DNA of 57,284 nucleotides from Pseudomonadota bacterium. GTDB lineage: Bacteria; Pseudomonadota; Gammaproteobacteria; Burkholderiales; Burkholderiaceae_C. The DNA lies in assembly GCA_020161145.1 (NCBI GenBank), contig JAIUPQ010000011.1, positions 1 to 57,284 of the forward strand. Reading direction: 5' to 3'. The position numbers and the translations under genes were made by a program. Positions within the stretch are counted from its first letter, which is position 1. The number at the start of each line of letters is the position of its first letter. The notes under the pieces were generated by a model that saw nothing but the letters and a program-made list of their open reading frames with translations, did not search any database and was not told the DNA's origin. Below, piece by piece: positions 40,588 to 44,354 of the stretch.

Positions 40588-40856
40588 CGCCGCCCCTTGC
40601 CTGCCGGCTGTTTGCGCCAGAAGCGGAATTCATCTTCGTGGTGCTCGATGTCCAGCTCCTGCACCCGCGCCAGCAGTCGCTCCTGCACCTCGCGCACCGC
40701 CTGGTTGTAGATCACCGGCCCCACCTCCTCAACGAAGAAGGCCAGCAGCGCGCCGGCCGTGATGTTGCCGATGCGCTGATCCAGCTCCTGCTCGAAATAG
40801 CGTTCGATGGAGGCAATGGCCTCGGCGCGGGTCTCGCGGGTCAACTCGATGGTCAT
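40584..40856 (-). CDS. DUF2164 family protein
   Basis: A 90-residue, mostly helical protein: IELTRETRAEAIASIERYFEQEL, then IGNITAGALLAFFVEEVGP and YNQAVREVQERLLARV (given in parts: SIERYFEQEL, GNITAGALLAFFVEEVGP). These match DUF2164, a family of unknown function. It sits between soxR and the DUF3052 gene with ATGA overlaps on each side. Confidence 0.88.
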   Translation of the reverse strand: MTIELTRETRAEAIASIERYFEQELDQRIGNITAGALLAFFVEEVGPVIYNQAVREVQERLLARVQELDIEHHEDEFRFWRKQPAGKGRR

Positions 40857-41323
40857 GGTCCCTCCTTGCGGGTGTGGTCAGGCGTGGCCAGCGGTGGCAG
40901 GTCGCGCGCGCCCGGCCCGCCGGCCGCCGCCGCATCCCCGGCGTTGTACAGCGCGCAGGTTTTCATCGACAGGCAGCCGCAGCCGATGCAGCCGGTCAGC
41001 TTGCCGCGCAGCCGCTGCAGCGCGGCGATGCGCGCGTCCAGCAGCGGCACCCAGCCGCGCGCCAGGCGCTGCCAGTCGGCCTTGGTGGGCGTGCGCCCGT
41101 CGGGCAGTGTGGCCAGCGCCGCGCCCACTTCGGCCAGGCCCAGGCCCAGCGCCTGCGCCGCGCGGATGAAGCCCACCCGGCGCAGCATGTGGCGCGCATA
41201 GCGGCGCTGGTTGCCCTCGCTGCGCAGGCTGGCGATCAACCCCTGCTGCTCGTAGAAGCGCAGCGCGCTGGCCGGTACGCCGCTGCGCGCGGCCAGCTCG
41301 CCTATGGTCCAGAATGATTCCAC
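40853..41323 (-). CDS. soxR: Redox-sensitive transcriptional activator SoxR
   Basis: A 156-residue MerR-family regulator. The winged helix lies at residues 5-45 (WTIGELAARSGV, LRFYEQQGL, GNQRRYARH) and a dimerisation helix follows. The iron-sulfur cluster motif is C112-X2-C115-X-C117-X5-C123 (CIGCGCLSMKTC), spacing identical to known SoxR proteins. Oxidation of the [2Fe-2S] cluster by redox-cycling compounds activates target promoters. The start is GTG 41323, only four bases from a SoxR-type operator, so the site probably also controls soxR itself. Divergent from the exporter at 41384. Confidence 0.96.
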   Translation of the reverse strand: MESFWTIGELAARSGVPASALRFYEQQGLIASLRSEGNQRRYARHMLRRVGFIRAAQALGLGLAEVGAALATLPDGRTPTKADWQRLARGWVPLLDARIAALQRLRGKLTGCIGCGCLSMKTCALYNAGDAAAAGGPGARDLPPLATPDHTRKEGP

Positions 41324-41327
41324 TTGA

Positions 41328-41345
41328 CCTCAAGTTCACTTGAAC
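41328..41345 (+). promoter_or_regulatory. SoxR operator 1, between soxR and the MFS exporter
   Basis: CCTCAAGTTCACTTGAAC, a dyad close to the known SoxR box (CCTCAAGTTNACTTGAGG). A TTGACC hexamer at 41324-41329 followed by a 19-bp spacer places a -10 at 41349-41354 (GACAGT, only three of six consensus matches). The over-long 19-bp spacer is the hallmark of MerR/SoxR-activated promoters. It faces the exporter gene. Confidence 0.8.
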
Positions 41346-41383
41346 TCCGACAGTTGCCGATTTCAACACGCCCCGCGCCCGCC

Positions 41384-42640
41384 ATGAACCCCACCCAATC
41401 CGATCGCCTGCTGGTGCTGGTCTGCCTGGTCTCCCTGCTCAGCACGGTGGGCATGGCGCTGCCGTACCCCATCCTCACGCCGCTGTTCGTCAACGGCCCG
41501 GCCGACGGCTTCACCCGCTTTGCCGGTCTGCCCAGCGAGTGGCTGCTGGGTGTGGCCCTGGCCATCAACCCGCTGGGCATCTTGTTGGGCAGCTTCTGGC
41601 TGGGGCCGCTGTCCGACCGGCTGGGCCGCCGGCCCGTGCTGATGGCCTCGCTGCTGGCCGGTGCGCTGGCCCATGCGCTGACCGCCTTCGCCATCACCCA
41701 GCGCAACTACCCGCTGTTCATCGTGGCGCGGCTGGCCAGCGGGCTGTGTGAGGGCAACATCGCCATCGCCCGCGCGCTGCTGGCCGATGCCTACGCCCCC
41801 GCTGAGCGCACCCGCGCTTTTGCGCTGCTCAACGCCTTCGCCTACGCCGGCTGGCTGGTCGGGCCGCTGCTGGGCGGCTGGGTCTTTGCCTACGGCGGCG
41901 GCGCTCCCTTCCTGCTGGCCGCCGCGCTCAACCTGCCGGCCTGGCTGCTGGCCTACCGGGCGTTGCCGCGCGAACAGCGGGTGGCCGCCACATCGCCCCA
42001 GCAAGGCCTGGGCACATGGGCCGTCTTGCGCGCCGAGCCGGGCCTGCGGGCGCTGGCCGCCTGCCACATTGCCCTCACGCTGGGCGTCAACGCGCTCTAC
42101 GAGTACGCGCCGCTGTGGCTGGTGCAGCGGTGGGGCTGGGGCAGCGCGGGCATCGCCTGGGTCACGGCGGCGCAGTGTGCGGTGATGGTGGGTGCCAGCA
42201 TGGCGGCGGCTGGGTTGCTGGCCCGTCTGCATGCCTGGGCACCGCGCACGCAGGCGGCGCTGGCCACGGCCAGCCTGATGGCCGTGGCGGTGGCAGCGGG
42301 TCTGGCGGTGTTGGCCACAGGCCAGCCCCACGGCGGTCTGATGGCCATTTTGCTGATGGGCGTGCCCATTGCGCTGTACAACGCCGTGCTGCCCACCCAC
42401 CTGGCCGCGCGCTATATGCACCTGGGCCAGGGCCGCGTGATGGGCATGATGACCACCTGGTTCTGCATCGCCAACGTCGTCATCTCGCTGGTGGGCGGCG
42501 TGCTGGGTTGGCTGGACGTGCGCTGGACCATGGGCCTGGGCGCGGCGTGCTGTCTGCTGGCGGCCTGGTGGCTGCGTGGCGCCCTGGATCAGGATAGGGC
42601 CATGACCGGGGCCGTTGCGCAGGGTGAGCAAACCACTTGA
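41384..42640 (+). CDS. MFS efflux transporter
   Basis: A 418-residue major-facilitator protein with about 12 spans. The loop 2-3 motif A is GPLSDRLGRRPVLMA, and the overall pattern resembles TetA/Bcr-type drug exporters. The start at ATG 41384 is preferred because the frame upstream runs through the SoxR operator. Position next to soxR with a SoxR box upstream indicates redox-responsive export, probably of a small redox-active or quinone-like molecule. SoxR regulates an MFS exporter in Pseudomonas as well (established for PA3718). Substrate unknown. Confidence 0.9.
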   Translation: MNPTQSDRLLVLVCLVSLLSTVGMALPYPILTPLFVNGPADGFTRFAGLPSEWLLGVALAINPLGILLGSFWLGPLSDRLGRRPVLMASLLAGALAHALTAFAITQRNYPLFIVARLASGLCEGNIAIARALLADAYAPAERTRAFALLNAFAYAGWLVGPLLGGWVFAYGGGAPFLLAAALNLPAWLLAYRALPREQRVAATSPQQGLGTWAVLRAEPGLRALAACHIALTLGVNALYEYAPLWLVQRWGWGSAGIAWVTAAQCAVMVGASMAAAGLLARLHAWAPRTQAALATASLMAVAVAAGLAVLATGQPHGGLMAILLMGVPIALYNAVLPTHLAARYMHLGQGRVMGMMTTWFCIANVVISLVGGVLGWLDVRWTMGLGAACCLLAAWWLRGALDQDRAMTGAVAQGEQTT

Positions 42641-42667
42641 CTTCAAGTGAACTTGAGGTTGTCTACT
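42637..42667 (+). promoter_or_regulatory. SoxR operator 2 and promoter, upstream of the questin-oxidase-family gene
   Basis: TTGACT (42637-42642), a 19-bp spacer and TCTACT (42662-42667, four of six matches). The dyad CTTCAAGTGAACTTGAGG spans 42641-42658. Its reverse complement matches operator 1 at 17 of 18 positions. The -35 hexamer overlaps the exporter stop codon, so the downstream gene has its own SoxR-dependent promoter. Confidence 0.85.
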
Positions 42668-42694
42668 GCATGCACCACCTCACAGGATGCTGCC

Positions 42695-43789
42695 ATGACC
42701 ACCGACCGCGCCATCGATTTGTACGCCGACCTGGATGCCGCCGCGCGCTTTGCGCCCAGCTTTGACAACGGGCTCTCCAGTCACCTGGCCATGACGCTGC
42801 ACGCCCAGCATCGACTGGGCGCCAGCGCCGGTCAGCGCGCGGCATTCCTCGCCGCCTACACGCCGCAACTGACGCGGCGTGACGCCGCGTGGGCCGACGG
42901 CCCGCTGGCCAACTGGCCGGCCCACCTGGGCCAGCGGCACGCGTTTGAGCCTCTGCGCGCCCATTTCGCCCACGCCATCGGCGTGCAAGGCCTGCCCACC
43001 GTGCTGGCGCAGGTGCTGCCGCACCTGCTGCCTGGCGCAGGCGGCGACGCCTTTCATGGCCTGATCCGCCTGGGCCATGCGCTGGACGCGGGCCACGCCC
43101 CCGAGCAGGCCCAGGCGCTGGCCTACTGGGCCTGCTGCGCGTTGCCGCTGCGGCCGGCCCAGGCCGTGTGGCCGGTCGGCACACTGGCGGCGCCGGCCTG
43201 GCTCGCCGGCGTGCTGGGCCTGCCACGCCCCGTCCACCCCGATCTGGAGAAGCCGCGCATCGCACTGCGCATGAAGGCCTGGGCCACGGCCCAAGGGTTC
43301 GATGCCGCGGCCACCGCGCTGGCCGTGGGTGCCACACCCGCCAGCGCGGTGGCCACGGTGGATGCCCTGGCGGCGCAGGCTGCCCGGCTCTATGCCCACA
43401 CGGCCAACTTCACGGTGCTGCACGTCATCACCTCGCTGTGGGCGCTGCGCATGCTGCTGCCGCACACGCCAGACCCGGTGCAGGCGGTGCGCACCTATGC
43501 GGTGGCCATGGCCGCCGGCCTGCGTGCAGCCCGCCTGGGCGCCGCGCACGCAGACCTGTTGCGCACGCCTGTGCCGCCTCCCCTGGACTGGGCGACGCTG
43601 CGCGCCCACGCCTGCGCCAGCACCGACGACCACGCGGCCAAGTTTCTTTGGGCGTGCGAACAATGGGCCGGTGTCAGCGACGACGCGGTGTACCTGGCCG
43701 CGGCCAGCGCGCAGTGGCGCGGGCTCACCGCGCAGACAGCGCCGGCTTCTGGTGCAGATACGTGGGCTGCTCTGCCTGCGCGACCATGA
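42695..43789 (+). CDS. Questin oxidase family protein (DUF4243)
   Basis: A 364-residue soluble protein. The family pattern is visible: FDNGLSSHLAMTLHAQHRLG near residues 24-43, a GVQGLPTVLAQVLPHLLPG segment, AFHGLIRLGHALDAG and a C-terminal NFTVLHVITSLWALRML, each carrying the conserved histidines. The fungal member catalyses a Baeyer-Villiger-type opening of the anthraquinone questin; bacterial members are uncharacterised. Immediate SoxR-type promoter and neighbouring exporter suggest it oxidises a redox-active aromatic. ATG 42695 has AGGA upstream at 42683-42686. Its 3' end overlaps the convergent SDR gene by 65 bp. Confidence 0.85.
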   Translation: MTTDRAIDLYADLDAAARFAPSFDNGLSSHLAMTLHAQHRLGASAGQRAAFLAAYTPQLTRRDAAWADGPLANWPAHLGQRHAFEPLRAHFAHAIGVQGLPTVLAQVLPHLLPGAGGDAFHGLIRLGHALDAGHAPEQAQALAYWACCALPLRPAQAVWPVGTLAAPAWLAGVLGLPRPVHPDLEKPRIALRMKAWATAQGFDAAATALAVGATPASAVATVDALAAQAARLYAHTANFTVLHVITSLWALRMLLPHTPDPVQAVRTYAVAMAAGLRAARLGAAHADLLRTPVPPPLDWATLRAHACASTDDHAAKFLWACEQWAGVSDDAVYLAAASAQWRGLTAQTAPASGADTWAALPARP

Positions 43790-44354
43790 ACCGCGCCACC
43801 GTGCGGCGCGGGATGGAGCCCACCTTCATCCCCTGCACATAGTCGGTCTGCACCCGGGGCGGGCCACTGGGCGCGCCGTTGGTCAGCACACCGGGGCGCA
43901 CCAGCATCCAGTTGAGATCCGAAGCGACAAGCCGGCCCTCCATCACCGACTTGTCGGCGTACACGTCTTTGAGGAAGAGGCGAAACAGCAGGCTGGTCAG
44001 CCAGCCGTGGTAGGCCGCACTCTCGCTGGCGCCAAAGCCGGTGAGCACGATCAGCGGCGCGTCGCCCAGCGCATCCCTGGCCTCAAGCAGCGCGGTGGCG
44101 AAATCGGTGTACAGCGTGGTGGGCTTGATGCTGGAGCCGGTGCCCAGCGTCACCAGCACCGCGTTGGCCCCCGTGATGGCGGCGCGCAGATCATCCGCCT
44201 GGGTGGCGCTGCCCTGGCGCACGGTCAGCGCCGGGTGCGCGGGCAAGGTGTCCACGCGGCGCGACAGCGTGGTCACCTGGTGGCCGCGCGCCAGCGCTTC
44301 GGTGGTGCAGGCCAGCCCCACGCCGGCCGAGGCGCCGATGATGGTGATGTTCAT
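43725..44354 (-). CDS. NAD(P)-binding SDR-like protein (NmrA/NAD(P)H-binding family)
   Basis: A 209-residue atypical SDR. It starts NITIIGASAGVGLACTTEAL, a GXSXGXG nucleotide motif, with VRQGSATQADDLRAAITGANAVLVTLG and IVLTGFGASES later. It lacks a clean YXXXK, like NmrA-type proteins that bind NAD(P) and reduce quinones or act as sensors. The start is ATG 44354 with the frame open further upstream through nagZ on the other strand, which I reject. It converges with the questin-oxidase-family gene; no SoxR box is seen in front of it. Confidence 0.8.
   Translation of the reverse strand: MNITIIGASAGVGLACTTEALARGHQVTTLSRRVDTLPAHPALTVRQGSATQADDLRAAITGANAVLVTLGTGSSIKPTTLYTDFATALLEARDALGDAPLIVLTGFGASESAAYHGWLTSLLFRLFLKDVYADKSVMEGRLVASDLNWMLVRPGVLTNGAPSGPPRVQTDYVQGMKVGSIPRRTVARFMVAQAEQPTYLHQKPALSAR

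Follow-up and report, generated by a model that had tools for sequence, protein, structure and literature searches.

We analysed a 57,284-nucleotide stretch of contig JAIUPQ010000011.1 (assembly GCA_020161145.1; hereafter the window) from a Pseudomonadota bacterium of the family Burkholderiaceae_C, in which a gene for the redox sensor SoxR lies head to head with a transporter gene that is followed by a gene of the questin-oxidase family. soxR (40853..41323, minus strand) has a GTG start and encodes 156 amino acids. Its product scores 195.7 bits against TIGR01950 (cut-off 116.9) and carries the [2Fe-2S] motif CX2CXCX5C, the cysteines of which we recovered at the positions given in an earlier note on this DNA (C112, C115, C117 and C123); with all four cluster cysteines present, the regulator is a true SoxR. 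Divergent from soxR runs a gene of the major facilitator superfamily (MFS; 41384..42640, plus strand; 418 amino acids), whose exporter-like product matches PF07690 with 115.8 bits (cut-off 33.4). The third gene (42695..43789, plus strand; 364 amino acids) begins 54 bp after the MFS gene and belongs to PF14027/DUF4243 (Questin_oxidase), the family assigned to it in the earlier note, with 59.5 bits against a cut-off of 27.

Two sites matching the SoxR consensus flank the MFS gene. Box 1 (41328..41345), a predicted operator, is situated between soxR and the MFS gene, 4 bp from the soxR start codon, and box 2 (42641..42658), likewise a predicted operator, lies ahead of the PF14027 gene; both 18-mers stand where the earlier note had placed them. 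At best, box 1 differs from the E. coli-type consensus CCTCAAGTTNACTTGAGG at two positions and box 2 at one, while shuffled versions of the window contain a mean of 0.05 and a maximum of one match to CCTCAAGTTNACTTGAGG. Each palindromic box sits inside the 19-bp spacer of a predicted plus-strand promoter, between its −35 and −10 elements, as the earlier note had read them. The promoter of the MFS gene (41324..41354) reads TTGACC-19 bp-GACAGT, with the elements starting at 41324 and 41349, and an internal promoter for the PF14027 gene (42637..42667) reads TTGACT-19 bp-TCTACT, with elements at 42637 and 42662; both match TTGACNTCAAGTNNACTTGA without mismatch. The −35 element of the latter overlaps the MFS stop codon (TGA, 42638–42640). 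The two dyads had been described as alike at 17 of 18 bases on opposite strands, which holds for the dyads themselves, but both promoters face the plus strand. A Shine-Dalgarno-like GAGG, 4 bases ahead of the soxR GTG start, belongs to box 1 (41321–41331).

The own genome was scanned over all 3,509,363 bases, with the backwards pattern as a control. At up to one mismatch, CCTCAAGTTNACTTGA matches at the two window boxes only, with 0 mismatches each, and its backwards control matches once. At up to three mismatches, TTGACNTCAAGTNNACTTGA gives four matches, all at the two window boxes: two with 0 mismatches on the plus strand and two with 3 on the minus strand, which stem from the palindromes. 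The backwards control of TTGACNTCAAGTNNACTTGA gives five matches at this threshold, so it is the perfect matches and not their count that stand out. The shuffles, together with the restriction of perfect matches to two sites in the genome, led us to reject a chance origin of the boxes. From the sites alone, the predicted regulon consists of soxR, the MFS gene and the PF14027 gene.

We then turned to a draw of 299 genomes of the family, searched with one protein as the query at E ≤ 1e-3. A PF14027 homologue is present in 45 of them, the window included, and up to about 7 kb per side was analysed for the 44 non-window homologues. The earlier note had proposed a search for the same box upstream of DUF4243 genes in relatives, and the search succeeded at 28 of the 45 homologues, which have TTGAC, the SoxR core and the 19-bp spacer within 350 bp upstream. 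Twenty-six of the 28 boxes show at most two mismatches; the two with three (L046 and L048) keep the layout unchanged. The background in the 45 loci is seven sites (≤2 mismatches) per 578,427 positions, with 0.0045 expected per region. Across the 28 promoters, TTGAC is invariant, and the −10 element has T at position 6 in all 28 and A at position 2 in 27.

A divergent soxR lies within 700 bp of the enzyme gene at 24 of the 45 loci, and the motif CX2CXCX5C is found in all 24 regulators. At 23 of these loci, the box is within 350 bp of the enzyme gene; the exception is L069, where a perfect box precedes a small VOC-family gene and the enzyme gene comes directly after it. Four more homologues (L038, L042, L053 and L067) have the box and no soxR in the analysed stretch, with soxR elsewhere in the genome, and the window is the 28th box-bearing case, with box 2 ahead of the enzyme gene and the MFS gene separating this gene from soxR. 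Because the four homologues carry the box with soxR unlinked, the enzyme-gene box is not merely the operator of soxR. Autoregulation of soxR as its sole role was ruled out by these relatives and the window, where the box stands before an enzyme gene that does not adjoin soxR.

The same comparison bears on the view that box 2 is a decaying relic or chance copy, so that only soxR and the MFS gene would be regulated and the PF14027 gene expressed by read-through. The second promoter begins at the MFS stop codon, only 54 bp separate the two genes, which run in the same direction, and the −10 element of this promoter is the odd one out of 28. Box 2 nevertheless has 0 mismatches to the core and the −35 element, and homologues retain the box whether or not soxR adjoins; we therefore consider a relic very unlikely.

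A true SoxR (above the TIGR01950 cut-off) is found in 64 of the 299 family genomes and in 34 of the 45 that have the enzyme. Twenty-eight of these 34 carry the box, as against none of the 11 SoxR-negative enzyme-bearing genomes (Fisher p 1.2e-6), and SoxR occurs in 34/45 genomes with the enzyme versus 30/254 without it (p 6e-18), both p values treating the genomes as independent although they are related and the box-bearing homologues form one group. The box thus tracks the presence of SoxR and also precedes soxR-unlinked homologues, and the comparison lends good support to the control of the enzyme gene by SoxR that the earlier note had put forward. These counts also bear on whether a different member of the MerR family, one that recognises a similar box, is the owner of the sites. 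In several relatives, TTGACTTGAAGTTGACTTCA or a near match stands beside MerR proteins below the SoxR cut-off; yet, with the SoxR cysteine motif in 24 of 24 divergent regulators and the enzyme-gene box in 0 of 11 genomes lacking a true SoxR, we regard an owner other than SoxR as scarcely credible.

A midpoint-rooted tree was built from 43 of the 45 homologues (L071 and L074, both MFS-linked, were dropped at <280 amino acids); in it, all 28 box-bearing homologues fall inside one group of 30 rows with support of 96/97. The two further rows of the group are L069, with its box one gene upstream, and L054, which has a poor three-mismatch site without TTGAC; outside the group are MFS-linked rows and a group partly following a presumed glutathione synthetase gene. 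The box-bearing homologues are about 32–46% identical to the window protein. A sound reading of these sequences is that the SoxR–PF14027 link represents one early association, which would have been kept while the proteins diverged. The open reading frames surrounding the 45 loci were also clustered; of the 40 clusters listed, the enzyme and soxR alone recur at most loci, the rest being without family annotation.

A second set of loci, from named genomes, comprises 80 loci kept of 342 found. It overlaps the family set, since 15 of the 44 non-window loci there have DNA in common with named loci (those of Aquincola tertiaricarbonis, Paucibacter, Roseateles koreensis, Pelomonas aquatica and Rhizobacter among them). 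Forty-two of the 80 have a divergent soxR; the box is present in all 42 and the cysteine motif was detected in 41. Three others have the box without soxR in the piece analysed, which for L085 covers 221 bases upstream only. Outside the family, PF14027 profile matches are rare: at E ≤ 1e-8, a draw across the class yields 5 positive genomes among 369 and a draw across the phylum 3 among 299, the own genome being counted in each, numbers that are not strictly comparable with those of the family draw, which used one protein and E ≤ 1e-3. L195 (~2565), from a genome of another family of the same order, has a SoxR-like box with one mismatch ahead of its homologue, and L125, from Vibrio atypicus, has a poorer one with three mismatches.

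The exporter is tied to the enzyme by a separate line of evidence. MFS relatives at E ≤ 1e-60 are present in 22 of the 299 family genomes, the window included, and in at least 7 of the 21 other genomes a PF14027-type gene adjoins the relative (1.5-kb flanks); three of the seven enzyme genes are confirmed by Pfam, and G111, G288 and G218 give weak matches. In L065, the stop of the MFS relative and the start of the enzyme gene overlap by 4 bases. Because 7 of the 21 relatives adjoin a PF14027 gene, joint action of the enzyme and this MFS subfamily, as the earlier note had proposed for the window pair, is supported independently of SoxR. The 21 relatives are about 50% identical to the window MFS protein and so may not be orthologues. 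Within the stretches analysed for the 45 enzyme loci, soxR, this MFS gene and the enzyme gene occur together only in the window, which joins the SoxR–enzyme linkage to the enzyme–exporter linkage. The best NCBIfam matches of the MFS protein are tetracycline efflux models, but it scores far below the cut-offs (79.4 against 475 bits). Close kinship with seven MFS-like partners of SoxR was rejected, the best match being 26% over 135 amino acids (E 0.003).

To place the enzyme, we searched the PDB with a profile built from alignment A1 (32 of the 45 homologues). The profile matches ‘Hydroquinone Dioxygenase PaD’ (8z4q, E 2.3e-10), questin oxidase BTG13 (7y3x, E 4.3e-8) and ‘Oxidoreductase AflY’ (8yxs, E 2.8e-4); no NCBIfam model matched the window protein. 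By hand count, window residues H30, H121, H243, H313 and K316 align with BTG13 chain residues 55, 158, 296, 374 and 377, and the PaD alignment contains the same four histidines and lysine in two stretches. Wherever one of the 45 homologues extends over the column of any of these five residues, the residue is conserved. In alignment A2 (the window and 58 of the 80 named loci, 59 rows), four of the five are invariant and H30 is present in at least 90% of the rows. We take BTG13 to be a fungal enzyme whose iron is held by four histidines and carboxylated Lys377. In the literature consulted, the view of BTG13 as iron dependent appears only as the title of a reference. Because of the remote profile match to solved dioxygenases and the conserved histidines and lysine, a ring-cleaving dioxygenase is a reasonable prediction for the window enzyme, with H30, H121, H243, H313 and K316 as its presumed metal site.

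We consider it probable that the locus represents a compact SoxR regulon, with its sites confined to 3 kb, whose role would be the disposal of a redox-cycling aromatic, for instance a quinone. Bound within the two over-long (19-bp) promoters, SoxR in its oxidised form would activate the MFS exporter and the PF14027 enzyme, and box 1, just before the soxR start, is placed as expected for SoxR autorepression. The enzyme, a predicted non-heme-iron dioxygenase with four histidines and a presumably carboxylated lysine, would oxidatively cleave the hydroquinone form of the inducer, and the exporter would remove the inducer or the ring-opened product. The sequences themselves establish the genes, the boxes and their layout, the uniqueness of the sites in the genome and the conservation of both linkages; SoxR binding, redox induction, the metal site, ring cleavage and export we infer.

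Control of an MFS exporter by SoxR, which the earlier note called established and attributed to Pseudomonas, is documented for mfsA of Stenotrophomonas maltophilia (PMC4411124). There, as in the window, soxR and the MFS gene are arranged head to head, the promoter has TTGACC and a 19-bp spacer (TTGACC-19 bp-CATGCT), and SoxR represses its own gene through a box placed close to the soxR start; in contrast to the window, neither a second box nor a PF14027 enzyme is mentioned in the portion of that paper at hand. The SoxR regulons of Pseudomonas aeruginosa and Streptomyces coelicolor are, by the part of PMC4146615 used here, small like that of the window, as is general for non-enteric regulons, and hold transporters and small-molecule-modifying redox enzymes that resemble antibiotic-tailoring enzymes. 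They differ in their enzymes (a monooxygenase, oxidoreductases, an epimerase/dehydratase and a quinone oxidoreductase) and in being spread over several loci, whereas the window has both sites at a single locus and an enzyme of PF14027. An exporter and an enzyme under SoxR are therefore of a known kind; the new part is PF14027 as the target and the strong SoxR–PF14027 linkage. The earlier note held a DUF4243 oxidase to be undescribed as a SoxR target, and in the open PMC literature we likewise found no description of a SoxR-controlled PF14027 enzyme. By their titles, the open PMC papers listed for DUF4243 or questin oxidase deal with fungi and with C-nucleoside antibiotics, and the main text of a SoxR study of Paraburkholderia xenovorans, also of the Burkholderiales, contains no word starting with ‘oxidase’ (PMC8859910).

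The fungal enzymes GedK, MdpL and AgnL3, together with BTG13, PaD and AflY, are profile kin of the window enzyme, and the four histidines and one lysine of BTG13 and PaD are conserved in its family. GedK is described as cleaving questin hydroquinone, after reductase GedF has acted, in a dioxygenase reaction called cofactor-free (PMC9890505, in part). The fungal enzymes are biosynthetic and work with GedF, whereas the window enzyme is bacterial, shorter, placed under a redox sensor and accompanied by an exporter. We tentatively suggest that a self-limiting circuit operates in this bacterial family: a redox-cycling (hydro)quinone may oxidise SoxR, SoxR may then induce a PF14027 iron dioxygenase that irreversibly opens the ring of this inducer, and the exporter may clear the product. 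Such a circuit would be the bacterial equivalent of the cleavage of anthraquinone rings in fungi, put to use in quinone defence instead of biosynthesis. Non-enteric SoxR regulons pair transporters with small-molecule-modifying enzymes, often with no clear picture of what becomes of the inducer. Should the PF14027 enzyme indeed cleave the ring of the inducer, bacteria would own a dedicated, oxygen-dependent route to dismantle redox cyclers. An uncharacterised bacterial branch of a fungal biosynthetic family would then gain a role and a ready assay, with SoxR inducers as candidate substrates.

SoxR could also control both genes while the enzyme is a tailoring or biosynthetic oxygenase acting on an endogenous metabolite, in which case the locus would serve signalling or self-made compounds and not the detoxification of foreign quinones. 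This is the direction indicated by S. coelicolor and P. aeruginosa, where redox-active antibiotics of endogenous origin trigger SoxR and the targets are similar to tailoring enzymes (PMC4146615, in part), and by the biosynthetic role of the fungal ring-cleaving relatives (PMC9890505, in part). On the other hand, the 40 neighbour clusters listed for the 45 loci revealed no conspicuous biosynthetic cluster, those other than enzyme and soxR being unannotated, and we judge an endogenous substrate unlikely.

Several results weigh against disposal of a quinone by SoxR-controlled genes, in addition to the relatedness of the genomes compared. Neither box nor soxR is found at 35 of the 80 named loci, and in six SoxR-positive family genomes the 350 bp ahead of the homologue contain no box (in L069, it is one gene upstream). 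The −10 element of the window enzyme promoter (TCTACT) lacks the A at position 2 that is present in the other 27. Local evidence favours the control of the MFS gene by SoxR that the earlier note had claimed (a perfect −35 and core, and a divergent soxR), but no SoxR box was found near the MFS relatives at any of the 21 loci (1.5-kb flanks). A PDB search with the window enzyme as a single sequence gave no match, and the matches to PaD and BTG13 are remote and obtained with the profile only. Nor is PF14027/DUF4243 confined to quinone cleavage, being part of MinC in minimycin biosynthesis (PMC8724604, in part). No GedF-like reductase or other conserved third partner stood out in the 40 unannotated clusters of the 45 loci.

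A gene for an NAD(P)H-binding protein (PF13460 by Pfam; frame scanned 43725–44354, minus strand) is convergent with the PF14027 gene in the window; a reductase partner acts in the fungal pathway, and no such gene is among the conspicuous conserved neighbours.

Other divergent soxR pairs of this bacterial family show the same kind of box and the same arrangement. We surveyed 30 loci of 67 SoxR matches (L230–L259), several of them with an unclear partner frame, and no box was found in 3 of the 30. The divergent partners include ABM-like, RidA-like, SnoaL, MFS and VOC proteins; Pfam was applied to seven pieces, with two ABM matches and one MFS match below the cut-off. Of the 64 SoxR-positive genomes, 23 have PF14027 immediately divergent from soxR, which makes it the most frequent partner among the 55 genomes whose partners were covered. 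The window's genus, as delimited in the genome database, is that of Ideonella benzenivorans: the middle 300 bases of L159, a locus from a genome assigned to this genus, are identical to part of L146 from that species. Of 16 genomes of the genus, 11 yield a SoxR match (E ≤ 1e-20). Besides the own genome, the enzyme gene is divergent from soxR in L158, L159, L160, L162 and L164, and a VOC-family gene replaces it in L161 and L163, an assignment that leaves out L165–L167. VOC-family (glyoxalase/dioxygenase) genes lie behind a SoxR box in L069, L161, L163 and L259.

Promoter-like TTGACTTGAAGTTGACTTCA sites were seen beside MerR proteins well below the SoxR cut-off in G206, G111, G154, G028, G236, G077, G182 and G267, the G182 copy differing by one base; they appear to mark a second regulator with a SoxR-like box.

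A second set of PF14027 genes, without a SoxR box, sits after a gene whose product ends in TEINVTSPT and which we take to encode glutathione synthetase (L081, L087, L088, L092, L094, L098, L108, L126, L039, L050 and L063). In the corresponding tree group of six rows, this gene was checked by translation in L039, L050 and L063 and as DNA in L045, and is not shown by L056 and L060. A glutathione link would likewise fit quinone detoxification.

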